Source of the DNA: a virus
IMG/VR virus record: IMGVR_UViG_3300021185_000840
Span: 1 to 20,993 of that record
DNA: 20,993 nucleotides
Reading direction: 5' to 3' (one strand)
Made by a program: the position numbers and the translations under genes. The notes under the pieces are model-generated. The model saw only the letters and a program-made list of their open reading frames with translations, searched no databases and was not told where the DNA came from. Each line of letters opens with the position of its first letter. Positions within the stretch are counted from its first letter, which is position 1. Shown here one piece after another: positions 1,761 through 17,443 of the stretch.

Positions 1761-2486
1761 ATGGCTACTTATGTATCTCTAGTTAATGAATTACTAAGAC
1801 GTATGAACGAGGTTACACTTGACATTGCGGGTGATGGCTTTGATACGGTACGTAATGTTCAGGCTCTAGCTAAAGATGCAGTCAATAGTAGCGTTAGACT
1901 TATTCTACAGGATGGTCAGGAGTGGCCCTTCCTTAAAACAACGTATACCCAAACACTAACGGCAGGCACACGCCTCTACGACTTCCCTTCCGACTACTCA
2001 AGTACTGACTGGAACACCTTTTATATTAAACAACTATCCTCTAAGAGTAATGCACCTCGTAACTTAAAGGTAATTACCTATGAGGACTACATTCAAAACT
2101 ATAGAAGTATAGACGACACGGGTGACACAGTTAACGGGGATGCTTCCCCCTCTGTTGTGTACCAAACTTATGGTCCTGCCTTTGGAGTTACACCTGTACC
2201 GGATGCAGCCTACGAAATTGAGTATGTGTACTGGTCTTACCCTGACGACATGGCAGTGTACAATGACGTGTGTATCATACCAGACAGATTCAAGCATGTT
2301 CTTATTGATGGCGCTATGATGTTTATGATGCGTTTCCGTAGTAATGAGCAGAGTGCGTCTATTCACCAGAATAACTTTGATGATGGTATTAAGTCTATGC
2401 GCCGTGTACTTATGGATGACGCAATAGAGATTAGATCCACAGCTGTATCAAGGGGCTTTAACTCTGCGTTTGGTGGTGGTGCCTGA
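1761..2486 (+). CDS. Head-tail adaptor / tail tubular protein A-like
   Basis: This 241-residue protein probably forms the ring joining the portal to the tail nozzle, like T7 gp11. The N-terminus (YVSLVNELLRRMNEV) and following helical stretch with AKDAVNSSVRLILQDGQEWPF resemble known tail-tube A and adaptor proteins. A central LYDFPSDYSSTDW segment and an FKHVLIDGAMMFMMRFR helix near the C-terminus also fit. The length is close to the family's roughly 200 residues. AGGA at 1750-1753 gives a normal ribosome site. The gene lies between capsid and nozzle genes, exactly where gp11 sits in T7-like phages. Its stop overlaps the next start (TGATG), suggesting coupled translation. The assignment rests on order, length and general resemblance. 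Confidence 0.65.
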   Translation: MATYVSLVNELLRRMNEVTLDIAGDGFDTVRNVQALAKDAVNSSVRLILQDGQEWPFLKTTYTQTLTAGTRLYDFPSDYSSTDWNTFYIKQLSSKSNAPRNLKVITYEDYIQNYRSIDDTGDTVNGDASPSVVYQTYGPAFGVTPVPDAAYEIEYVYWSYPDDMAVYNDVCIIPDRFKHVLIDGAMMFMMRFRSNEQSASIHQNNFDDGIKSMRRVLMDDAIEIRSTAVSRGFNSAFGGGA

Positions 2487-4024
2487 TGGCTGATAACCTA
2501 GCCTCCTTTAAAGTCTTCTGCCAAGGCGGTCTAAACACCAGTCGTGATGTGCTGTCACAGGGTGAGACGCAACCGGGTTCAGCTATCTCGTTGATTAACT
2601 ACGAGCCTGCTGTTACTGGTGGTTATCGCAAGATGAGTGGCTACAGTAATGACTATGGTACAGTTCCAGGGTTCGGTGATGTTTTAGGTGTCTGTGTAGC
2701 TAATGGTGTGAATGACGGTATCCTTGCCGCACGGTATGATACAGGAAGCACTGACTATCTGTATTACTGGAATACTTCTACATCTGCTTGGGTAACTATT
2801 ACTACACCTGCCACTGTTGATGTTTCAACTTACCCCAAGGTACGCTTCTCTCGTTACAACTGGGGTACATCTAAGGTAGTTATTACGGATGGTGTGAACC
2901 CTGCTGCAACATATGATGGTACGACTTACACTCAGCTTACTAGCACTAACGCTCCCAGCGCACCTAAACTCTCACATGTATTTAAGAACCACTTATTCTT
3001 AGCAGGTGATGCTACTGAGACTACTAGCCTGTGGTTCTCTGCACCCTACAATGAGATTGACTACGATCCTGCAGACGGTTCAGGTGTCATTAACGTAGGC
3101 TTCCCTATTGTTGCCATAAAGTCATTTCGTGACGCACTCTACGTCTTTGGATCAAACAATATCCGTAAGCTTGTAGGTAACAACATAGCAGACTTTGTAC
3201 TTGAAGAAGTTACAGATGACTTGGGTTGTGTAGCTACCGACAGTATCATTGAGATAGGTGGGGACTTAATCTTTTTATCTCAGGATGGTCTGCGGCCTAT
3301 TAGCGGTACGGATAAAATTGGTGACGTTAATCTTGAGACTGTCTCTAAAGACATTCAGTCTATCTTTACTGATGTAGTTTTTGATGTAGACTTAGACAAG
3401 CTGAACGCCGTAGTTATCAGACAGAAGACACAGTTTAGGTTCTTCCTTGGTGCAGCTGATGGACAGGGTATCATCGGTGGCTTTAGACAGACACCTAATG
3501 GTTTGCAGTTTGAGTATGGACAGATGCTTGGTGTCTTTACTACATGTGCTACCAGTGGTTACATTGGTCAGGATGAGTTTGTAGTACACGGTGATAGCAA
3601 CGGTAAAGTACACCGCCAAGAACAAGGCAACTCATTTGATGGTGAGGATATATTTAGTGTATTCCAGACACCCTTCTTTCACATGCAAGACCCAGAGCAA
3701 CGTAAGGTGTTTTACACTGTAGCTACGTACTTACGTTCTGAGGGTGACAATGAACTAATCATGTCTGCTCTTTACGACTACGAAGACGTAGACACTTTGC
3801 GTCCTACAAACTTTACACTAACAACACAGGGCGCAGCTGCATATTATAACGAAGCCTTGTACAACAGCACAGCAATCTTTGACGGTAACCCTGCCCCTGT
3901 ACGGCGCACAAACATTTCAGGTTCAGGTATGTCAGCATCATTTAAATACGTAACCAATGACACTAACGCCTCCCACAGTATCCAAGGCATCGTGGTGACA
4001 TTCGGAGTAGGAGACAGGTTATAA
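2486..4024 (+). CDS. Tail nozzle / tail tubular protein B-like structural protein
   Basis: This 512-residue protein is rich in beta-strand-like segments. It begins SFKVFCQGGLNTSRDVLSQG and includes GSAISLINYEPAVTGGYRKM, a sequence style common at the start of podovirus nozzle or stabilisation proteins. Later segments such as HLFLAGDATETTSLWFSAP, ALYVFGSNNIRKLVG and LIFLSQDGLRPI recur as strand-turn-strand units, which suggests a beta-propeller-like body. T7 gp12, which has this position and role, is larger (about 790 residues), so this is a shorter version. The start overlaps the previous stop by one base. It would form the distal tail tube to which fibres attach. Exact equivalence to gp12 is inferred from position and fold style. 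Confidence 0.65.
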   Translation: MADNLASFKVFCQGGLNTSRDVLSQGETQPGSAISLINYEPAVTGGYRKMSGYSNDYGTVPGFGDVLGVCVANGVNDGILAARYDTGSTDYLYYWNTSTSAWVTITTPATVDVSTYPKVRFSRYNWGTSKVVITDGVNPAATYDGTTYTQLTSTNAPSAPKLSHVFKNHLFLAGDATETTSLWFSAPYNEIDYDPADGSGVINVGFPIVAIKSFRDALYVFGSNNIRKLVGNNIADFVLEEVTDDLGCVATDSIIEIGGDLIFLSQDGLRPISGTDKIGDVNLETVSKDIQSIFTDVVFDVDLDKLNAVVIRQKTQFRFFLGAADGQGIIGGFRQTPNGLQFEYGQMLGVFTTCATSGYIGQDEFVVHGDSNGKVHRQEQGNSFDGEDIFSVFQTPFFHMQDPEQRKVFYTVATYLRSEGDNELIMSALYDYEDVDTLRPTNFTLTTQGAAAYYNEALYNSTAIFDGNPAPVRRTNISGSGMSASFKYVTNDTNASHSIQGIVVTFGVGDRL

Positions 4025-4025
4025 C

Positions 4026-6440
4026 ATGGCAGGTTACACTAGACAGTCAGTAGCAGACATTATCGCTAATGCGGTTATTAAAGCTGCACCAGTAAACGCT
4101 GAGTTTAACGCTATTCGTGATGCTTTTAATAACAGCACGGGTCACAAGCATGACGGTACATCTTCTGAGGGTACTTACGTTCCCCTCATTGCAGACATTG
4201 ATGCTAATAATAAAGTAGTAGTAGATACAACTAACAATCGTGTCAGTTTTTACTCAGAGGTAGGTGGTTCTGCAGTAGAGCAAGTACGCATTCAAGACGG
4301 TGCTATTGTTCCTGTAACGGACAACGACATTGATCTGGGTTCGTCTGGGCTTAAGTTTAAGAACCTCTACGTTGATGGTATCGGTGAGATTGGCTCTACC
4401 ACTATCCTTGGCGGTACTATTGATAACGTAGTCATTGGTGGCACTACTCCAGCTGCTGCAGACTTTACTACAATGGATGCAACAGGTAATGTTACTGTTG
4501 GTGGTACGTTTGCTGTAACGGGTACGTCTGCACTAACAGGCACTACTACCATTACGTCTGCTGACATCAACTCTGGTGCAATGGACAACACGGTTATTGG
4601 TAATACTACACCTGTTGCAATCACAGGTACTACTATTACAGGTACGTCCCTTGTTGGCCCCCTCACGGGAGATGTTACTGGGGATGTCACTGGTGACGTA
4701 ACAGGCGATGTTACAGGAGACCTTACAGGTAACGTAACAGGGAATGTAACGGGTAACTTAAATGGTATTATTGGTGCTACTACCCCTGCTGCTGGTAGCT
4801 TTACAACTGTATCGACATCTGGACAAGCAACCTTGGCGACTGTTGATATTAACGGCGGTAGCATTGACGGTACTATTATTGGAGCATCAACTGCTGCAGC
4901 TATAACAGGTACTACCATCACAGGTACTAGTCTTGTAGGGCCGCTTACAGGTAGTGTAACAGGTAACGTAGCAGGTAATGTTACTGGCAATCTTGTGGGC
5001 AACGTAACTGGTAATGTTACTGCAGCAAGTGGCACTTCCTCATTCACCGATGTGACCATTAATGGTACACTGAACATGAATGCTGGTACTACCTCCACTA
5101 TTACTAACCTTACAGCACCTTCTAATGACCTTGACGCAGCCACAAAAAAGTATGTGGACGATGAAGTAGCTGGCCTTGTGGACTCTGCCCCCGGTACACT
5201 TGATACGTTAAACGAACTAGCTGCCGCTTTGGGTGACGATGCAGACTTTGCTAATACTATAACAACTAGCATTGCCACTAAGTTACCACTGGCAGGTGGT
5301 ACAATGACTGGCCCTATTGCTATGGGTACATCTAAGATTACTGGCTTGGGTGATCCAACTGCAGCACAGGACGCAGCAAGTAAAAACTATGCTGACACTA
5401 CTTTCTTAGGTAAAGCTGGTGGCACTATGACTGGTGCTATCAGTATGGGTAGTGCTAAGGTTACTACTACCTATACACCTACAAATGGTCCTGATCTCAC
5501 TAACAAGACATACGTAGATAGCATTGTAGGGTCTGGTGCTTCTGCAGCTTCTAGTGCTACAGCTGCTGCTTCTTCCGCTACAGCCGCTGCTACCAGTTCA
5601 ACTAACGCAGGTAACTCTGCTACTGCCGCTGCAAGTTCAGCTACATCTGCCGCTGCATCATACGATAGCTTTGATGATCGTTACTTAGGTGCTAAGTCTT
5701 CCGCTCCTGCGCTAGACAATGATGGCGATGCACTTATAGCTGGTGCTTTATACTTCAACACTACTACTGACATCATGTACGTTTATGGTGGCTCTGGTTG
5801 GCAGGCCGCTGGAAGCTCTGTGAATGGTACATCTAACCGTAATACTTACACTGCTACCGCTGGTCAGACTTCCTTTGCTGCAACGTATGACCCCGGCTAT
5901 GTTGATGCCTACCTCAATGGCGTAAAGCTTATTAATGGTACAGACTTCACTGCTACAAGCGGTACATCTATTGTGCTGGCATCAGGTGCAGCGGTAGGTG
6001 ATACTGTAGACATTGTAGGTTTCGGTACATTTGTAGTAGCTGATACTTATACTAAGACACAGGCAGATGCTCGTTACTTACTAGAGTCAAACAATCTCTC
6101 AGACTTAGTTAGTGCAGCAACAGCAAGAACAAACCTTGGCCTAGCTATAGGATCAGACGTACAGGCTTATGACGCAACTATTCTTGTTGATGGAGATATT
6201 GGTTCTACTGTTCAGGCTTATAACACTAACTTAACTGCTATAAATCAGGCACTAACAACAACGTCTAGTCCAACCTTTGCTACAGCAAACATAACAACGG
6301 CAGACTTTGGTAACTGGACTGTCACAGAGTCAGGTGGCTCACTGTACTTTGCTACAGGCGGCACAAACAAAATGAAATTAGACGCAAGCGGCAACCTCGA
6401 TGTTGTCGGCAACGTCAATTCTAACGCAACAATCACCTAG
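4026..6440 (+). CDS. Large repetitive tail fibre protein
   Basis: This 804-residue, mostly low-complexity protein has the architecture of a trimeric phage fibre. The N-terminus (about 1-45, ending GHKHDG) is a probable attachment domain. Residues 183-245 and 276-325 hold two copies of a module containing ITGTTITGTSLVGPLTG, each followed by TG(D/N/S)V repeats. Two ATKKYVDD/ASKNYADT-type trimer motifs follow. An Ala/Ser-rich segment at about 502-545 is likely coiled coil. A globular region with YFNTTTDIMYVYGGSGW and VDAYLNGVKLINGTDF comes next. The end is LDASGNLDVVGN, a common finish for marine-phage fibres. No S74-type self-cleaving chaperone domain is visible. AGGAG at 4009-4013 serves the start. 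The next gene's ribosome site lies directly after this stop. Confidence 0.8.
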   Translation: MAGYTRQSVADIIANAVIKAAPVNAEFNAIRDAFNNSTGHKHDGTSSEGTYVPLIADIDANNKVVVDTTNNRVSFYSEVGGSAVEQVRIQDGAIVPVTDNDIDLGSSGLKFKNLYVDGIGEIGSTTILGGTIDNVVIGGTTPAAADFTTMDATGNVTVGGTFAVTGTSALTGTTTITSADINSGAMDNTVIGNTTPVAITGTTITGTSLVGPLTGDVTGDVTGDVTGDVTGDLTGNVTGNVTGNLNGIIGATTPAAGSFTTVSTSGQATLATVDINGGSIDGTIIGASTAAAITGTTITGTSLVGPLTGSVTGNVAGNVTGNLVGNVTGNVTAASGTSSFTDVTINGTLNMNAGTTSTITNLTAPSNDLDAATKKYVDDEVAGLVDSAPGTLDTLNELAAALGDDADFANTITTSIATKLPLAGGTMTGPIAMGTSKITGLGDPTAAQDAASKNYADTTFLGKAGGTMTGAISMGSAKVTTTYTPTNGPDLTNKTYVDSIVGSGASAASSATAAASSATAAATSSTNAGNSATAAASSATSAAASYDSFDDRYLGAKSSAPALDNDGDALIAGALYFNTTTDIMYVYGGSGWQAAGSSVNGTSNRNTYTATAGQTSFAATYDPGYVDAYLNGVKLINGTDFTATSGTSIVLASGAAVGDTVDIVGFGTFVVADTYTKTQADARYLLESNNLSDLVSAATARTNLGLAIGSDVQAYDATILVDGDIGSTVQAYNTNLTAINQALTTTSSPTFATANITTADFGNWTVTESGGSLYFATGGTNKMKLDASGNLDVVGNVNSNATIT
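4665..4765 (+). repeat. Tandem 12-base repeat coding TG(D/N)V
   Basis: About eight diverged in-frame 12-base units, roughly ACNGGNGAYGTN, encode TGDVTGDV then TGNVTGN from residue 214 of the large fibre. A shorter, more diverged second block lies near 4945-5025. In-frame units allow fibre length changes without frameshift. Confidence 0.8.
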
Positions 6441-6455
6441 TAGGAGTACACGAAG

Positions 6456-7994
6456 ATGGCGATTAAAGTAGGCGGTACAACCGTCATAAACGATAGCAGG
6501 GCGCTTAATAACATTACCTCAGTAGATGCAACCACTGTAGCTGCCTTGGGTACGGCTGGTGTTGGTGGTGGAGGTGGTAGCTTTGATGCAGTAGCTTCTG
6601 GTACTATTGCTAATGGCGCTCTTGTGTCTTTAAATTCAGATGGCACAGTCTCTACAACTGCAGCTGCTTTAGGAGACAATTCTACTTTTTATAGTGGCAA
6701 CCTAGATGATCTTGTTTCTGTATACGACAGCAATTCTAATAAAGTAGTAATTATGTATATTGCAGCCGATTTATCTAGCCGCCCTTATGCTGTGGTAGGT
6801 ACAGTAAGCGGAACTTCTATTTCTTTTGGTACTGCCGTTAAGTTATCAGATAACTACATGACTTGGCTCGCTATGACCTTTGATAGTAATTCCAATAAAG
6901 TAGTAGTAGCTTTTAGAGATAATAATGATCAAGATAAAATAAGGTCTATGGTGGGTACAGTAAGTGGAACCTCTATTTCTTTTGGTTCCATTGTAGATGT
7001 GACACCCGGCTCCTCAAGCTCTCATTATACTCAACTAGCTTTTGACAGTAATTCAAACAAAATTGTAATTGCCTATAGAGAATACAATGCTGATAACGGG
7101 ACTTATGCAAGCAAGGCGAATGTTGGTACGGTAAGTGGAACTTCAATATCCTTTGGGTCAGCAGCAACCTTTGAAAATAGTAGGTGTGAGCCTACTTCTA
7201 TTACTTTCGACAGTAATTCTAATAAAGTAGTCATACTCTTTAAGCACGATGTCGATGGTGACGATGGGAAAGCTGTTGTTGGTACGGTAAGTGGAACTTC
7301 AATATCCTTTGGCACTCCAGTCACTTATACGACAGGTAATGGGGATGACGGTGTTTGCACATTTGATAGTAACAGCAACAAAGTTGTTATTGCCTTTCAA
7401 GATAATAATAATAGCAATTATGTATCAGGAATAGTGGGTACAGTAAGTGGAACTTCTATTTCTTTTGGTAGTCCTGTTGCGATTGGTGCATGGACCGGAA
7501 CTAATAGGAGTATAACTTTTGACAGTAGCAGGAACAAAATTTTTATTAACTATAAAGCTGGTAACCCTGAAAGGGGTGAAGTAGTTTCAGGAGTTGTTAG
7601 CGGAACTTCTATTACTTTTGGCCTACCTGTTATTTATCACACTGGAAGTTTTGAAAGAGCGGATACTATCTATGACCCTACAACCACTAATGTTGTTATA
7701 TCTTATAAAGATCAAGCTGCTGGTAGCAATGGAATATCTTTAGTAGCAAATCCTAATGGACTTATAAACTTTTTTAAGTGGATAGGTTTAGCCTCTGAAA
7801 GTATATCTAATACATCTACTGGCACTATAAATGTTTTGGGTGGAATTAATGAAAGCCAATCTGGTCTGTCCGTCGGGTCTACTTATTATATAAATGGTGA
7901 CGCTGCACTAAGCACTACAGTCACTACTGGACGTGAAGTAGGTAAAGCGTTGTCAGCTACAAAGTTGCTTATTACCCAAGGGAGTATATCGTAA
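6456..7994 (+). CDS. Tail fibre protein with a seven-repeat probable beta-propeller
   Basis: This 512-residue protein starts with MAIKVGGTTVINDSRALNNI, an N-terminal tag frequent in marine-phage fibres, then a GVGGGGGS hinge near 35-42. Seven repeats follow, each opening with (F/Y)DSNSNKVVI or a decayed form, at residues 90, 142, 196, 251, 303, 355 and 406. The spacing is 51-55 residues. Five carry GTVSGTSISFG, and a sixth has GVVSGTSITFG. Seven units of this length strongly suggest a seven-bladed beta-propeller, a good receptor-binding head. The C-terminal domain (about 430-512) has GGINESQSGLSVGSTYYI and ends LLITQGSIS. AGGAG at 6442-6446 is the ribosome site. The gene looks more AT-rich than its neighbours. 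The fold is inferred from periodicity. Confidence 0.75.
   Translation: MAIKVGGTTVINDSRALNNITSVDATTVAALGTAGVGGGGGSFDAVASGTIANGALVSLNSDGTVSTTAAALGDNSTFYSGNLDDLVSVYDSNSNKVVIMYIAADLSSRPYAVVGTVSGTSISFGTAVKLSDNYMTWLAMTFDSNSNKVVVAFRDNNDQDKIRSMVGTVSGTSISFGSIVDVTPGSSSSHYTQLAFDSNSNKIVIAYREYNADNGTYASKANVGTVSGTSISFGSAATFENSRCEPTSITFDSNSNKVVILFKHDVDGDDGKAVVGTVSGTSISFGTPVTYTTGNGDDGVCTFDSNSNKVVIAFQDNNNSNYVSGIVGTVSGTSISFGSPVAIGAWTGTNRSITFDSSRNKIFINYKAGNPERGEVVSGVVSGTSITFGLPVIYHTGSFERADTIYDPTTTNVVISYKDQAAGSNGISLVANPNGLINFFKWIGLASESISNTSTGTINVLGGINESQSGLSVGSTYYINGDAALSTTVTTGREVGKALSATKLLITQGSIS
6798..7621 (+). repeat. DNA-level repeats in the propeller gene
   Basis: Copies of a 32-base core coding GTVSGTSISFG start at 6798, 6954, 7125, 7281 and 7437, with a diverged copy at 7590. 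Copies at 7125 and 7281 are identical to each other. Copies at 6798, 6954 and 7437 share a different set of silent bases. The DNA similarity exceeds what protein selection requires. Confidence 0.8.
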
Positions 7995-8509
7995 TGACCA
8001 AAGCAAGAGACAATGAGTACAGGAATAGGACCACGGGTGAAGTAAAAACACAAGAGGAATTGATTACAGATAACCTTCATATGTCTTTTCCTAGTGTCTG
8101 GCAGGAAGATGAGTTGGAGGCACTTAACATTGATGCAGTCCTGTCAAGCCCTGCTGCCACCACAACACAATATCAGGACTCCGTGCGTGATGGTGTTGAG
8201 CAGAACAGTGATGGAGATTGGGTAGAGAAGTATATAGCCCGTGATATGTTTTCTGATACTACCGATGAAAATGGAGTGACAACCACTAAGTCAGAGCACG
8301 AAGCTGCATATCAAGACACGCTAGACGCTAGTGTAGCTGAGAGCAACCGCACTAAGCGTTATGGATTGCTGTCTGAGACTGATTGGACAGGTATGTCAGA
8401 TGTAACAATGACTGCAGATATGACAGCCTATCGTCAGGCTTTACGTGATATTACAGATCACGCTAGCTGGCCTAACCTTGACGATGCCCACTGGCCTACT
8501 AAACCTTAA
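7994..8509 (+). CDS. Tail fibre assembly chaperone-like protein
   Basis: This 171-residue protein ends in a segment typical of phage tail assembly chaperones (Phage_tail_APC-like). From about residue 118 it reads RYGLLSETDWTGMSDV, then YRQALRDIT, and finally HWPTKP at the C-terminus. Such proteins help fold or trimerise fibres. The N-terminal two thirds is acidic and not recognised. The first six residues (MTKARD) match the start of the following fibre gene at both protein and DNA level, which is odd for a chaperone. The start overlaps the previous stop (TAATG), with AGGGAG at 7979-7984 as ribosome site. Its place directly after the propeller fibre suggests that fibre, or the next, is its client. 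If incorporated in the virion it could instead be a minor fibre part. Confidence 0.65.
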   Translation: MTKARDNEYRNRTTGEVKTQEELITDNLHMSFPSVWQEDELEALNIDAVLSSPAATTTQYQDSVRDGVEQNSDGDWVEKYIARDMFSDTTDENGVTTTKSEHEAAYQDTLDASVAESNRTKRYGLLSETDWTGMSDVTMTADMTAYRQALRDITDHASWPNLDDAHWPTKP

Positions 8510-8520
8510 GGGATAACCCA

Positions 8521-9321
8521 ATGACAAAAGCAAGAGACCTAGCAAACCTAATCGCAGCGGGTAACCCTCTTTCCGATGGTGCTATCACTGTCGCAGAGAT
8601 TAGTGGACTTACAGCTTCAGAGACAGAGCTTAATAAGCTAGATGGTGTAACGGCAAGCACAACAGAGCTTAATAAGCTAGCTGGTCTGACTTCTAGTACC
8701 GCCGATCTGAACAACGTAGCTGGTATTAACTCCTCAGTACAAACACAGCTTGATGCTAAAGCACCTCTTGCAAGCCCTACCTTTAGTGGTACAGTGACAG
8801 CTACATCATTCTCAGGGAATGGCGCTAACCTTACTGGAGTTGATTCTCTTCCCTCTCAGTCTAGTCACTCTGGAAAATTTCTTACTACAGACGGTACAAA
8901 TCCTACATGGGCTACCTTAGAGGCAGAGACAGAAATAACCTCTAATCGTTCTTACTGGATTACTGATGTATCTAATACTAATCAAATTGTTGGTAAGTTT
9001 AATAAAGTACAGGTAGTACCTGCAAACACATCAATCACAGGTACATGGCAGATAGCATCAGACGCTGAGGTTTATATTACTGAGGTAACATCTATAGACA
9101 GCTTTGGAGAGTATCTAGAAGGTAATCAAACTATCAGTGGTAATCACATCTTTTACAAACAACTAGAGGTACTGGACGGATCAACAATCACAGTTACAGG
9201 CACTATAGAAGGATTCGGAGATAGTCCTGTAGCGGGTACAAGTACTTCGGCCCTAACGTCTGCAGATGTTACAACTTTGATTGACGGTTCTATGGTATTT
9301 GAATCATTTGGAGGCGCTTAA
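8521..9321 (+). CDS. Tail fibre / virion structural protein, MTKARDL type
   Basis: This 266-residue fibre-like protein begins MTKARDLANLIAAGNPLSDGAIT, then has three repeats of the kind TASETELNKLDGV, TASTTELNKLAGL and TSSTADLNNVAGI (about residues 31-70). Next come LDAKAPLASPTFSGTVTATSFSGNGANLTGV, a standard trimeric-fibre shaft segment, and a SGKFLTTDGTNPTWATL motif. The C-terminal half (about 145-266) is a beta-rich, probably globular tip with repeated short Ile/Thr/Gly strands. A weak ribosome site, AAGGGA at 8508-8513, spans the previous stop. It lies in the fibre block with small structural genes after it. It is likely a second fibre, or one segment of a branched fibre. Confidence 0.7.
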   Translation: MTKARDLANLIAAGNPLSDGAITVAEISGLTASETELNKLDGVTASTTELNKLAGLTSSTADLNNVAGINSSVQTQLDAKAPLASPTFSGTVTATSFSGNGANLTGVDSLPSQSSHSGKFLTTDGTNPTWATLEAETEITSNRSYWITDVSNTNQIVGKFNKVQVVPANTSITGTWQIASDAEVYITEVTSIDSFGEYLEGNQTISGNHIFYKQLEVLDGSTITVTGTIEGFGDSPVAGTSTSALTSADVTTLIDGSMVFESFGGA

Positions 9322-9322
9322 A

Positions 9323-9844
9323 ATGGCTACAACAACACACTTTCTACAGGCTTACGGAACTGGCGGGACCAGTACTGCCCAATTCAAAGATGCTATTACT
9401 ATACCAACAGGTAAGATAGCTAAAGTAAAAATTACATCTTTAACAGTACAGAACACTACAAGTGCCGCTGAGAACTATAATTGGAGAGCTGGGATATACT
9501 GTGTTACACCTCGGCCCGATGGGACTTCAACTGAAGTACTGCTAGATAATTATAGAGCAAGTAATTATCAAAGCAACTTTTCTCATTATGTGATCGTCCC
9601 TTATAAACACGGAGATGGTCATACCTCTGGTAATGTTCAAAACAGCTCCGGTCAAGACACTTACAATGACTACAGCCCTAATACTATTCAAGGTAACAAT
9701 GGTGCGTCAGGTATGTTCAATTCAGAATTTTACTTAAATCAAGGAGAGATTCTAAGGTTTATGTGGCGGTACGATGTTGGCGGCATGACAGATTATGAAT
9801 TTTTCTTACGGGGCTTTTACTTACTAGAGGACGTTACATCATGA
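9323..9844 (+). CDS. Small virion/fibre-associated protein, function unknown
   Basis: I choose the ATG at 9323 (173 residues) rather than 9281. GGAGG at 9310-9314 is ideally spaced for 9323, and the upstream extension overlaps the previous coding end in another frame. The protein starts MATTTHFLQAYGTGG and has beta-strand-like stretches with KIAKVKITSLTVQNTTS and YHVIV-like aromatic strands. It ends with an aromatic FLRGFYLLED segment. I do not recognise a family. Its size, composition and place suggest a jelly-roll-like fibre tip or decoration protein. It lacks the VDxI start of the next three genes. The stop overlaps the next start (ATGA), so translation is probably coupled. Confidence 0.6.
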   Translation: MATTTHFLQAYGTGGTSTAQFKDAITIPTGKIAKVKITSLTVQNTTSAAENYNWRAGIYCVTPRPDGTSTEVLLDNYRASNYQSNFSHYVIVPYKHGDGHTSGNVQNSSGQDTYNDYSPNTIQGNNGASGMFNSEFYLNQGEILRFMWRYDVGGMTDYEFFLRGFYLLEDVTS

Positions 9845-10605
9845 GTAAACTAATTGTAGACGATATAGAACTGGCGTCAGGTGACCTTTTGGGTCTTCCT
9901 AATACGGTAGAAAATAATAAGCTACTACCTGTCTCTAATAATTCTATAGGGTCTGGGGAGAGTATTCCATCTGCTAAACACACACTGGTACATGACTTCG
10001 CTGTAGGCTCTCAGCCCACTTCCTTAACCTACAACTTCTCTACAGACAGCTCAAATATTATAGCTATCCGTATTATGTTTTCCCAGATGCGTATTACTGC
10101 GAGTACGGCTTCAACTGATATTGGATATGGCATTGGTAGTTCTACGCTAGATGTACCTGCAAGTCATACCAACTATCAAAATAGGCCTATACGTAATTGT
10201 TATTTAAGTTTTGAGGATCAGGCTCAGTCGCAAGGTACGGCCTTTGGTCGATTTGATAATAGTTATATGTACAGTATGGGTGGACCTAGAGGAGGTACAG
10301 GAATGGATATAAACAAAACACACCCATTAGATCAGTGTGAAAACAGTGTACACCACATCCTTTTTGATAAAAACTCGGTAGACGGTTACGTTTTTAAGCA
10401 GATGGGTAAAACTAGTAAATTATCCGGTAGTGGTAACAACATGAGACATGCTTCTTATGGAAGTCATTGGAACTACAGTTCAACTAGCAATAACACAAGT
10501 GATTACCCAGGACACCCTACCCCTTTTACAAAAATAGGTTTTATCATACCTTCTAATGTTACTGTTTATCAGGGTCAAATATCTATCATGGAGTACTTAA
10601 AATGA
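9841..10605 (+). CDS. VDxI-type small fibre protein 1
   Basis: This 254-residue protein begins MSKLIVDDIELASGDLLGLP. The next two genes share the pattern M(S/R)Kh(I/K)VDxI followed by SG, so this is probably a common attachment tag. After a linker the body has beta-like strands (LTYNFSTDSSNIIAIRIMFS), a Gly-rich MYSMGGPRGGTGMD segment at about 143-156, and an aromatic/Ser/Asn-rich stretch. It ends FIIPSNVTVYQGQISIMEYLK. I do not recognise the body. It starts on an ATGA overlap, with AGAGG at 9826-9830 upstream. It likely forms a receptor-binding or accessory fibre tip, but this is inferred from context and composition only. Confidence 0.6.
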   Translation: MSKLIVDDIELASGDLLGLPNTVENNKLLPVSNNSIGSGESIPSAKHTLVHDFAVGSQPTSLTYNFSTDSSNIIAIRIMFSQMRITASTASTDIGYGIGSSTLDVPASHTNYQNRPIRNCYLSFEDQAQSQGTAFGRFDNSYMYSMGGPRGGTGMDINKTHPLDQCENSVHHILFDKNSVDGYVFKQMGKTSKLSGSGNNMRHASYGSHWNYSSTSNNTSDYPGHPTPFTKIGFIIPSNVTVYQGQISIMEYLK

Positions 10606-11318
10606 GAAAGGTCATAGTCGATACCATCCAGACATCGTCCGGGACAGCATTTGACGTGTTTGAATCTCAAGGTACAGCAGGTAAGCTGGTAACAAGGGAT
10701 GCTGCTGATGGTGTTTTTAAAGACGCTGTTATACCAAAGGATACAAAGGTCGAGCATGTAGGTGCGTTAGGTACTGCAGCAGTATCTTTTGACTTTCCAC
10801 TTCGTAAGGGAGACAATTCCTTAAAGAGTAATTTTACGTTTGACATCAATGTTAATTTTGATTCTATGTTCGTAAGTCCAGCTGATAGTAACAACAGAGA
10901 ACTCCGATTTAAGGTAAAAGACTCAGCAGGTAGTTTTCTTACAGTATCTAGTTCTTATGTCAGGCCTAATATGTTCGATAATAGTTTTAGTGGAACTACA
11001 GCGGGTAATGGTACAACCCTTCAGTATGCTCCTATAAGGACTCGGTACATTAACGATAGTATTTACAATAGCCAATTTACAGCAGACGTTACTTTTTTTG
11101 CTAACCCCAGTAACTCCGCTCAACATTATCTGATGGTAAAGTATGCAGGCCAAGTCGGTCATGTTGGTTCCTCTAGTGGTATTGGTGTTTTAAATGGATT
11201 TTCTTGGGCTAGGTTTGATTCGGGTACTCCTGCAACTCTAGTCTTAGAAACTGACGCTCAAGCGGGAAATAATGAGGAGTCATTATACATAAATAATATC
11301 ACGGGGTACTTATCATGA
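10602..11318 (+). CDS. VDxI-type small fibre protein 2
   Basis: This 238-residue protein starts MRKVIVDTIQTSSG, aligned with the N-termini of its neighbours. A short linker with GKLVTRDAADGVFKDAVIP leads to a beta-rich body with many Ser/Asn/Asp residues and aromatic strands, such as FTFDINVNFDSMF and FTADVTFF. No enzymatic motif is visible. It starts on an ATGA overlap with GGAG at 10590-10593, and ends on an ATGA overlap with the next gene. The body shares little visible sequence with the flanking paralogues, which suggests a shared tag fused to different binding domains. Confidence 0.6.
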   Translation: MRKVIVDTIQTSSGTAFDVFESQGTAGKLVTRDAADGVFKDAVIPKDTKVEHVGALGTAAVSFDFPLRKGDNSLKSNFTFDINVNFDSMFVSPADSNNRELRFKVKDSAGSFLTVSSSYVRPNMFDNSFSGTTAGNGTTLQYAPIRTRYINDSIYNSQFTADVTFFANPSNSAQHYLMVKYAGQVGHVGSSSGIGVLNGFSWARFDSGTPATLVLETDAQAGNNEESLYINNITGYLS

Positions 11319-12007
11319 GTAAAATTAAAGTAGATGTCATACAAGACACATCAGGTAATCAAATGAAATTCCCTTCAACCCCCTTAAGTGATGGGTATCT
11401 AGGAGTTTCTTCCTCTGGAGTAATGACTTCTCATCAATTAGTTGAAAGTACAACAGGTCTTACTCTTTATGACGCCCGTTCTTCTGGTGGCAATAGTGCA
11501 GTTAATGTACTAAAAGAAGTTCCCAGTGAAATTAAAACAAAAATGTTAGCTGGTGTTTCTTGTACAGTTATTATGTCTGGAGTTTCCTATCTTGGCGGTG
11601 GTATGTACTTTACAGACGCTGCTGGTACACCTCAAAGATGGGAATACGGCAGGAATATGTGGAGGTACAAAAGAGAAAACAGCGACACTTACGGGTATGA
11701 AACCTCTCTCACTCATTGCCGTGCTATGTTCCAGGGTCTGTCGGACCAGAATGCACCTACGGCAGATCACGCTGGGGGTTGTGTAATTAACTTTAGATTC
11801 ATTCAAAATAGTTCTGATGGCAATGGCCGTACAGTAAACTACGAAGCGCTAAGTCTGTCAACTACTGCTGGCATTAGACCCGACTCAAACAGTACTTTAG
11901 GTACTTCGGAAGGTAGAATGCCTGTAAATGATACCTTCACACACTTAAACTTTGTTGGTACACGTATTACTGCAAACGGTTATATTAAATTGTTCTTACA
12001 AGAGTAA
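11315..12007 (+). CDS. VDxI-type small fibre protein 3
   Basis: This 230-residue protein opens MSKIKVDVIQDTSGNQMKFP, again the VDxI...SG tag. It is followed by LSDGYLGVSSSGVM, similar to the linker seen in many fibre proteins. The body holds aromatic and charged stretches (MWRYKRENSDTYGYE, about 112-126) and Gly-rich turns. It ends THLNFVGTRITANGYIKLFLQE, which resembles in layout the C-terminus of the gene at 9841. It starts on an ATGA overlap with only a weak GGGG site (11303-11306) upstream, so coupling to the previous gene probably matters. It is the last gene of the fibre block. Role and fold are inferred. Confidence 0.6.
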   Translation: MSKIKVDVIQDTSGNQMKFPSTPLSDGYLGVSSSGVMTSHQLVESTTGLTLYDARSSGGNSAVNVLKEVPSEIKTKMLAGVSCTVIMSGVSYLGGGMYFTDAAGTPQRWEYGRNMWRYKRENSDTYGYETSLTHCRAMFQGLSDQNAPTADHAGGCVINFRFIQNSSDGNGRTVNYEALSLSTTAGIRPDSNSTLGTSEGRMPVNDTFTHLNFVGTRITANGYIKLFLQE

Positions 12008-12014
12008 CTAAGAC

Positions 12015-16480: not shown

Positions 16481-17443
16481 ATGTCATTCAAGAACCTAAT
16501 GATAGCTGGCAGTCTTGCTAAAGCATACAACGATCAAGTTGCAGAGAAGAAGGCTAAGGTTGCGGAGATCAATGCTGTAAAGCGTGAGTACTTATTTAAG
16601 ACTGGTCTGAAAAATATTCAGGATCGTAGGGAGTCCCTTAAGGCTTCAAGGGCAAGGGTTTCCCAAGCTAAAAGGTTTGGCTTCTCAACTAAGTCTGCAA
16701 GAGCACTTGAGATGGCTGGTCAATTAGAGTTTGAAATAGACAAGGTAGCTACCTTAACAAAGAATGGTAAGCTGTCAGAGAACTATGTAGAAACTTTATC
16801 AGCATTTCTGGACAAAAAGGTAGAAGGGGACGAGGCTCTTGCTGCTGCAGTCTCAAGGGGTTTGCAAGGTGAAAGCTTCAAGACAGAAGAGGACATGTCC
16901 TTGGGTCTTATTAATGCAATGGGCGACCTCAATGAACTCCAAGAACAGTTCTTAAAAACTACTGAGCCCTCTGGGAGGGCAGGTCTACCAGCCTTTAAGT
17001 ATAGCTCCACTAAGGGGCCACGTATTGAACTGTCAGACCGGAAGTCTATCCAAGCACAGCTGGCCTCATCCCTCAGTACAATGTACGATACTAACTTCTC
17101 TATTAACAACGTAGGTGATGTTGTGTTCAGCCAGGACGCCGCACCAGATGTTCAAATACTTTTTAATAACCTTACTGAAAAGACGGTAGAGTTAGCAGAA
17201 GATCCTACAAACAGTTTCAGCCCAGTGTCTGCTCTAAGTACGGTTATTGGTAGCATTGAAAACAGTTCTAACGTACCTGCAGTCACTGTTCTTGAAAAGA
17301 TAGACGAGGCAATTACCACACCCAACTTTAACTGGGAACCTTTCAAAGCTACCACAGGTACTGGTACAGGTACTGGTACAGGTACTGGTACAGGTACTGG
17401 TACAGGTACTGGTACAGGTTCTCCGACAGAGGATATTGGGTAA
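16481..17443 (+). CDS. Probable internal virion protein with C-terminal (TG)11 tail
   Basis: This 320-residue, mainly helical protein starts with a basic region (KNLMIAGSLAKAYNDQVAEKKAKV and on to about residue 70, rich in Lys/Arg). It continues with a helical middle containing LSAFLDKKVEGDEALAAAVSRGL. A less charged, strand-containing part follows at about 180-285. The final 29 residues are eleven Thr-Gly pairs (292-313) and SPTEDIG. The tail is probably a flexible linker. AGAGG at 16468-16472 is the ribosome site. Its stop overlaps the next start (TAATG). It lies beside the largest core protein and is probably packaged with it. I recognise no family, and the virion role is inferred from position. 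Confidence 0.55.
   Translation: MSFKNLMIAGSLAKAYNDQVAEKKAKVAEINAVKREYLFKTGLKNIQDRRESLKASRARVSQAKRFGFSTKSARALEMAGQLEFEIDKVATLTKNGKLSENYVETLSAFLDKKVEGDEALAAAVSRGLQGESFKTEEDMSLGLINAMGDLNELQEQFLKTTEPSGRAGLPAFKYSSTKGPRIELSDRKSIQAQLASSLSTMYDTNFSINNVGDVVFSQDAAPDVQILFNNLTEKTVELAEDPTNSFSPVSALSTVIGSIENSSNVPAVTVLEKIDEAITTPNFNWEPFKATTGTGTGTGTGTGTGTGTGTGTGSPTEDIG
17354..17419 (+). repeat. Perfect 12-base tandem repeat coding Thr-Gly pairs
   Basis: Five exact copies of ACAGGTACTGGT (17354-17413) plus a half copy (17414-17419) encode (TG)11. Exact copies imply recent slippage. Units are a multiple of three, so copy-number change alters length, not frame. Confidence 0.95.

Follow-up and report, generated by a model that had tools for sequence, protein, structure and literature searches.

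The window (i.e. the whole stretch of DNA analysed) is a virus record of 20,993 bases whose structural genes are collinear with those of Roseobacter phage CRP-13, with amino-acid identities of 96% for the coat protein and 91% for the next structural protein. The morphogenesis genes of CRP-13 are of the HMO-2011 type (PMC8528129, PMC6918029), and the source of the window is an HMO-2011-type roseophage near CRP-13. An open reading frame of 512 amino acids (6456-7994, + strand) was found between two fibre-related genes on the same strand. The upstream gene (4026-6440) encodes a tail fibre with a PHROG tail fiber match (E 3.3e-34) and 71% identity to CRP-13 gp48 over residues 1-684. The downstream gene (7994-8509) is fibre-assembly chaperone-like (Phage_tail_APC, E 9e-11; PHROG tail fiber assembly) and overlaps the stop codon of the 512-residue frame. 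Comparison with CRP-13, CRP-2 and CRP-1 placed these genes at a host-recognition island (approximately 6085-12014) that is largely replaced in CRP-13, which has other genes there except for the chaperone at 7994-8509 and the first part of the gene at 8521. CRP-13 gp45, encoded at the same locus, was rejected as a relative of the 512-residue protein. Isolate CRP-2 encodes, directly after its tail fibre, a 511-residue protein (gp52, L003:7762-9297) with an MSNLSDFL tag resembling those of several relatives and with loosely similar degenerate motifs. This protein was collinear with the family described below over 436 columns, but at an hhalign probability of 5.7 and an E of 0.007 the homology is not significant; if a real relative, it would provide a cultured test system. 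Three consecutive reading frames of the island (9841-10605, 10602-11318 and 11315-12007) lack family matches, have a common K(L/V/I)xVDxIxxxSG starting tag and probably encode further fibre heads. Elsewhere in the window, a perfect 12-bp tandem repeat of 5.5 copies (17354-17419) codes for the C-terminal Thr-Gly run of the reading frame at 16481-17443. The best PHROG match of the frame at 2486-4024 was phrog_5107 'amidase' (E 1e-54), a label that may be wrong, as the gene's position and its other matches point to a tail tube or head-closure protein.

The initial annotation had described seven (F/Y)DSNSNKVVI-type units recurring every 51-55 residues in the 512-residue protein. Their positions (residues 90, 142, 196, 251, 303, 355 and 406) and successive spacings (52, 54, 55, 52, 52 and 51 residues) were confirmed, the seventh being a half unit. 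A second, VGTVSGTSISFG-like motif is present in only six copies (residues 115, 167, 224, 276, 328 and 379), which interleave with the seven copies of the first. Across residues 85-440, 83 self-identity matches were obtained at a lag of 52, whereas 2000 shuffles examined at all lags from 40 to 64 never exceeded 46. At the DNA level both motifs form 45-nt repeat families with 64-89% identity to a reference copy, excluding a recent exact tandem, and the repeat is absent from the Tandem Repeats Finder list for the window. Protein identities of the units to a reference blade were 35-54%. An iterated repeat HMM detected six full units and a C-terminal half unit (residues 406-435), and N-terminal residues 62-83 matched the other half of the HMM with a weak score; six full units plus two halves are as expected of a closed ring.

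A structure was predicted with AlphaFold2 using 44 relatives (mean pLDDT 86.6, pTM 0.78, 324 residues at 90 or above). DSSP resolved residues 76-432 of the model into four-stranded antiparallel units, in blocks mostly of pLDDT 88-97, and pLDDT was low at residues 11-39, i.e. most of the N-terminal tag. Propellers were found throughout the best 50 matches listed by Foldseek against the PDB. The highest target-normalised TM values among these 50 were for PLL2 lectin (0.74) and Sec12 (0.72), both seven-bladed propellers; the top matches by E-value were sialidases, which are six-bladed, with target TM mostly of 0.37-0.59. The initial annotation had proposed a seven-bladed propeller and had named a linear beta-solenoid as the prediction that would contradict it. 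A solenoid is ruled out because Foldseek returned seven-bladed propellers, and the seven-bladed reading is well supported as the predicted fold by the four-stranded units, the TM values of 0.72-0.74 and the unit counts of 7 or 14 reported below. From DSSP strands and the repeat HMM, the blades were delimited on the + strand as residues 83-131 (blade 1, 6702-6848), 135-183 (blade 2, 6858-7004), 187-240 (blade 3, 7014-7175), 244-292 (blade 4, 7185-7331), 297-346 (blade 5, 7344-7493) and 352-395 (blade 6, 7509-7640). Blade 7 (residues 399-432, 7650-7751) has three strands of its own. A further strand in the model (residues 76-79, 6681-6692), within the N-terminal HMM half unit, is positioned where it would complete blade 7 and so close the ring.

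Searches of Pfam, PHROGs, NCBIfam and PDB sequences gave no credible assignment of the window protein; matches of its relatives to these databases were scattered and look repeat-driven. No solved structure was reached by sequence search from the window protein or its relatives. Among predicted viral structures, the best Foldseek matches were unnamed proteins and gp49 of Lentibacter phage vB_LenP_ICBM2. Neither the Asp-box SxDxGxTW of sialidase and sortilin propellers nor the DxDxDG motif of VCBS/integrin-like propellers occurred in any of 190 proteins of the family, none of which had three or more matches to the WD40 GH...WD pattern, and Pfam WD40 did not match the window protein.

The propeller is flanked by further conserved parts. 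An N-terminal attachment tag (residues 1-34) and a GVGGGGG glycine linker (residues 35-41) occupy 6456-6578 (+ strand). The fibre tag of the initial annotation is supported: residues 1-34 were 53% identical to the N-terminus of CRP-738 gp33, the distal part of which differs. The linker follows directly. DNA similarity between the window and CRP-738 starts where the upstream fibre gene ends and breaks off in the first codons of the tag, which suggests a module-exchange point. Among relatives, N-terminal tags vary from lineage to lineage. Between linker and propeller lies a stretch (ASGTIANGALVSLNSDGTVS; residues 42-72, 6579-6671, + strand) conserved in 44 relatives, with the consensus ASGTLxNGxxVxxNxDGTVS. 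A second conserved stretch after the propeller (residues 433-508, 7752-7979, + strand) has the consensus GLTxGQxYYVQxDGTL...AGxAxSATxLIV. These two halves, into which the propeller appears to be inserted, would form one cap domain. A resemblance of the cap to Phage_cement_2 (PF09956) was detected in 2 of 44 relatives at an E of 0.01 or weaker; the window protein itself did not match this Pfam family even at an E of 1. In proteins of 783 and 774 amino acids from contigs L102 and L107, a different repeat (SLSTAWDxSTASY...FKPDGTKMYV) is inserted in the second cap half, giving two-part heads (L102:5637-7985, L102:8001-10322 and L107:4984-7332). This repeat, which is unrelated to that of the window protein and probably forms another propeller, also makes up much of CRP-738 gp33 (L005:8189-11587), the protein with the tag of the window.

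Searching viral contigs with the window protein alone as query produced no matches because the query patterns came from variable stretches; relatives were recovered using an alignment of the repeats as query. In IMG/VR, at least 556 relatives were encoded, i.e. by 556 of the 600 matches listed. The initial annotation had raised the question of whether the repeat is known in phages, and the profile search found it to be rare there: among 50,697 phage records only ICBM2 matched, together with a weak match to a single-cell marine virus. The 84,980 prokaryote genomes contained twelve matching loci, almost all of which were in metagenome-assembled records. The propeller family, frequent in records of uncultured viruses but almost lacking from those of isolates, has therefore escaped annotation. 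Two or three propeller genes are often close together on carrier contigs, and some carriers encode baseplate-wedge and L-shaped-fibre-assembly genes. Contigs L126 (54 kb), L163 (65 kb) and L123 (208 kb) belong to viruses unlike that of the window and have at least two propeller genes each; the relatives in L126 and L163 adjoin fibre or baseplate genes.

Unit numbers were counted in complete relatives selected for having either multiple copies of the second motif or a significant match to the HMM, a criterion that very short arrays would escape. In a first set of 100 proteins, 73 had exactly 7 unit starts and 21 had exactly 14 in one run. For both sets combined (162 distinct IMG/VR relatives), 7 units were present in 125 and 14 in 24, i.e. 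149 of 162 had one or the other number. These multiples of seven argue against an open solenoid, for which such a preference would be unexpected. The AlphaFold2 model of a 14-unit relative contained two arrays (residues 45-397 and 429-781) with most blocks above a pLDDT of 85; at a pTM of 0.49, this model does not give the arrangement of the two rings. Foldseek matches of the 14-unit model to multi-propeller structures were limited to ones of low TM. In the 14-unit proteins, the second ring is inserted inside the second cap half.

Variability within the blades was examined using 704 distinct 52-residue units. Variation was greatest at unit positions 13, 15, 19 and 45-51, and D2, K7, Y12, D14 and the VGTVSGTSISFG stretch were nearly fixed. 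In the AlphaFold2 model, positions 13-19 cover the last part of strand b plus the b-c turn, and positions 45-49 the d-a loop plus the beginning of strand a. From the strand order, as distinct from coordinates, both variable sites would lie on one face, with the chain end leaving strand c on the opposite one. When top and bottom loops were compared using DSSP limits, the result was less clear-cut than that of the per-unit profile, as the variable sites sit at strand ends. For 78 independent close unit pairs, pN/pS was 1.54 (bootstrap 95% CI 1.15-2.18) at positions 13, 15, 45, 47 and 48 and 0.18 for the framework, excluding the seven most variable positions. When the five most variable positions were picked in half of the contigs and assayed in the other half, the mean pN/pS was 1.60 with a minimum of 1.08 in 20 splits. 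Individual codons reached significance only at positions 45 and 13, and the claim of selection therefore concerns the codon group. Recent blade duplicates within single proteins (n = 19) exhibited 69 of 187 differing codons at six rim positions. Of the 101 base changes at these rim positions, 84 affect the first or second base of the codon. Internal virion proteins of sister phage L102 were 95-98% identical to their counterparts in the window, as against only 44-47% for the propellers. The nearest blade often occupies another ring position (85 of 148). Within-protein codon homogenisation was slight (0.771 versus 0.750, p 0.02) and strong concerted evolution is therefore not claimed. Taken at the level of codons, the data indicate that two short groups per blade, predicted to lie on the same rim, are diversifying and that the frame is conserved.

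These observations bear on several explanations of the propeller. It could be an enzyme, e.g. a sialidase-like glycosidase or a depolymerase cutting host surface glycans, as sialidases lead the Foldseek matches by E-value; these are, however, six-bladed and mostly of low target TM (0.37-0.59). Phage endosialidases do use propellers (PMC4901313), but the Asp-box is absent from all 190 relatives and the rim, the usual location of active sites in propeller enzymes, is the least conserved part of the protein, making an enzymatic role very unlikely. Slightly less improbable, though still unlikely, is a capsid decoration or a purely structural tail part whose ring binds nothing on the host. The faint Phage_cement_2 similarity in 2 of 44 relatives is what points to this; the sharing of the tag with a fibre-like protein and the fibre and fibre-chaperone neighbours speak against it, and this gene context argues for the tail over the capsid. 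The island is also swapped, and a structural contact would be expected to conserve its surface, but the rim is diversifying.

A separate question is the origin of the rim variation, which might come from a diversity-generating retroelement instead of ordinary mutation and selection. As a retroelement could produce, the differences between recent blade copies cluster in a small number of codons, frequently at two or more bases of the same codon. Against this, an RVT_1 reverse transcriptase was detected in 0 of 12 carrier records, which are possibly incomplete, by a search with a positive control; a purine is the last base of 41% of the variable codons, and approximately one third of the changes do not involve adenine, i.e. 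are not adenine-limited. We consider a retroelement extremely improbable and ordinary mutation with selection to be the probable source of the variation.

The closest cultured homologue is ICBM2 gp49 (YP_009834236.1, 'hypothetical protein'), which is homologous over its full length and has both halves of the cap (hhalign probability 99.7, E 4e-26). This phage also has a Roseobacter-group host, and its propeller gene adjoins tail fibre assembly genes in the same fibre/fibre-assembly neighbourhood as in the window; the protein differs in having approximately 27% identity, more diverged blades and its own N-terminal tag (MSTLRVDTITDEAG). The K(L/V/I)xVDxIxxxSG motif of the three downstream frames also occurs at the start of gp49. 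Phage propellers that recognise, or are thought to recognise, the host include phi11 gp45 (five blades), PRD1 P2 and phiKZ gp131C (seven blades) (PMC4901313), and the window propeller therefore belongs to a known kind. Those proteins have diverged blades and other supports than the window protein, and no sequence similarity to them was found for the window protein or its relatives. Photorhabdus PLL/PHL lectins (6rgg, 5mxf) resemble it in their seven-bladed ring (target TM up to 0.74) but are lectins with 10% identity and no sequence match. Highly repetitive propellers (PMC9218822) likewise arise by amplification of similar blades, but the window blades (35-54% identity) fall below the 60% limit of that survey, which mentions a few viral members but not phages. 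By analogy, the nearest working counterpart would be the recognition propeller of fungal HNWD proteins (het-d/het-e), whose WD40 repeats have two diversifying codon pairs each, in the d-a loop and the b-c turn and each around a fixed residue (PMC1805685). Both systems combine similar blades and a fixed frame with diversifying codons at these two sites. The fungal proteins differ in being intracellular receptors of the WD40 family with variable repeat numbers and strong concerted evolution; as the sequence family differs, the likeness is one of principle and not of membership.

The product of 6456-7994 is quite likely to be an adsorption protein of the tail-fibre type from a marine podovirus of the HMO-2011 type, with a closed seven-bladed head whose variable rim probably contacts the host receptor. 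Indirect evidence of host recognition comes from the gene context, the shared tag, the swapping of heads and the diversification of the rim; fibre and fibre-assembly neighbours and a swappable head behind a conserved tag are features of receptor-binding proteins found for this gene. As the exposed loops change fast on a fixed frame, the propeller probably grips the host. We infer a hypervariable head that would be incorporated into the tail and bind a receptor of either sugar or protein nature, with the variable face presumably towards the host. In the proposed mechanism, the N-terminal tag and glycine linker would tether a propeller sitting between the two halves of a small cap, and a fixed framework common to all blades would close the ring. 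Each blade would contribute two short hypervariable rim sites, one where strand b runs into the b-c turn and the other where the d-a loop leads into strand a, and their sevenfold repetition would create a variable platform. This platform probably contacts a host surface receptor (i.e. a glycan or an outer-membrane protein) and sets host specificity, and would diversify by selection on rim codons, blade duplication or exchange and the swapping of whole heads behind a conserved tag.

No sequence family covers the window propeller and no description was found in the open-access literature searched, though descriptions may exist elsewhere. As far as found, what is new comprises the sequence family and how large it is in uncultured viruses, the rule of 7 or 14 units, the insertion into a cap and the diversifying rim. 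The initial annotation had not mentioned the cap, the variable rim or the size of the family. A broader reading, whose probability we judge to be evenly balanced, is that these proteins represent a large undescribed phage adsorption family in which closed propellers serve as variable platforms, evolving by blade duplication, exchange and selection at approximately five codons per blade, with several heads per genome, i.e. a viral counterpart of the fungal HNWD repertoire reached independently. Variable rim residues arranged in a ring on a fixed frame provide a natural example of a modular binding platform. The family supplies a named protein and its structure model, as well as a small set of variable codons from which specificity might be predictable.
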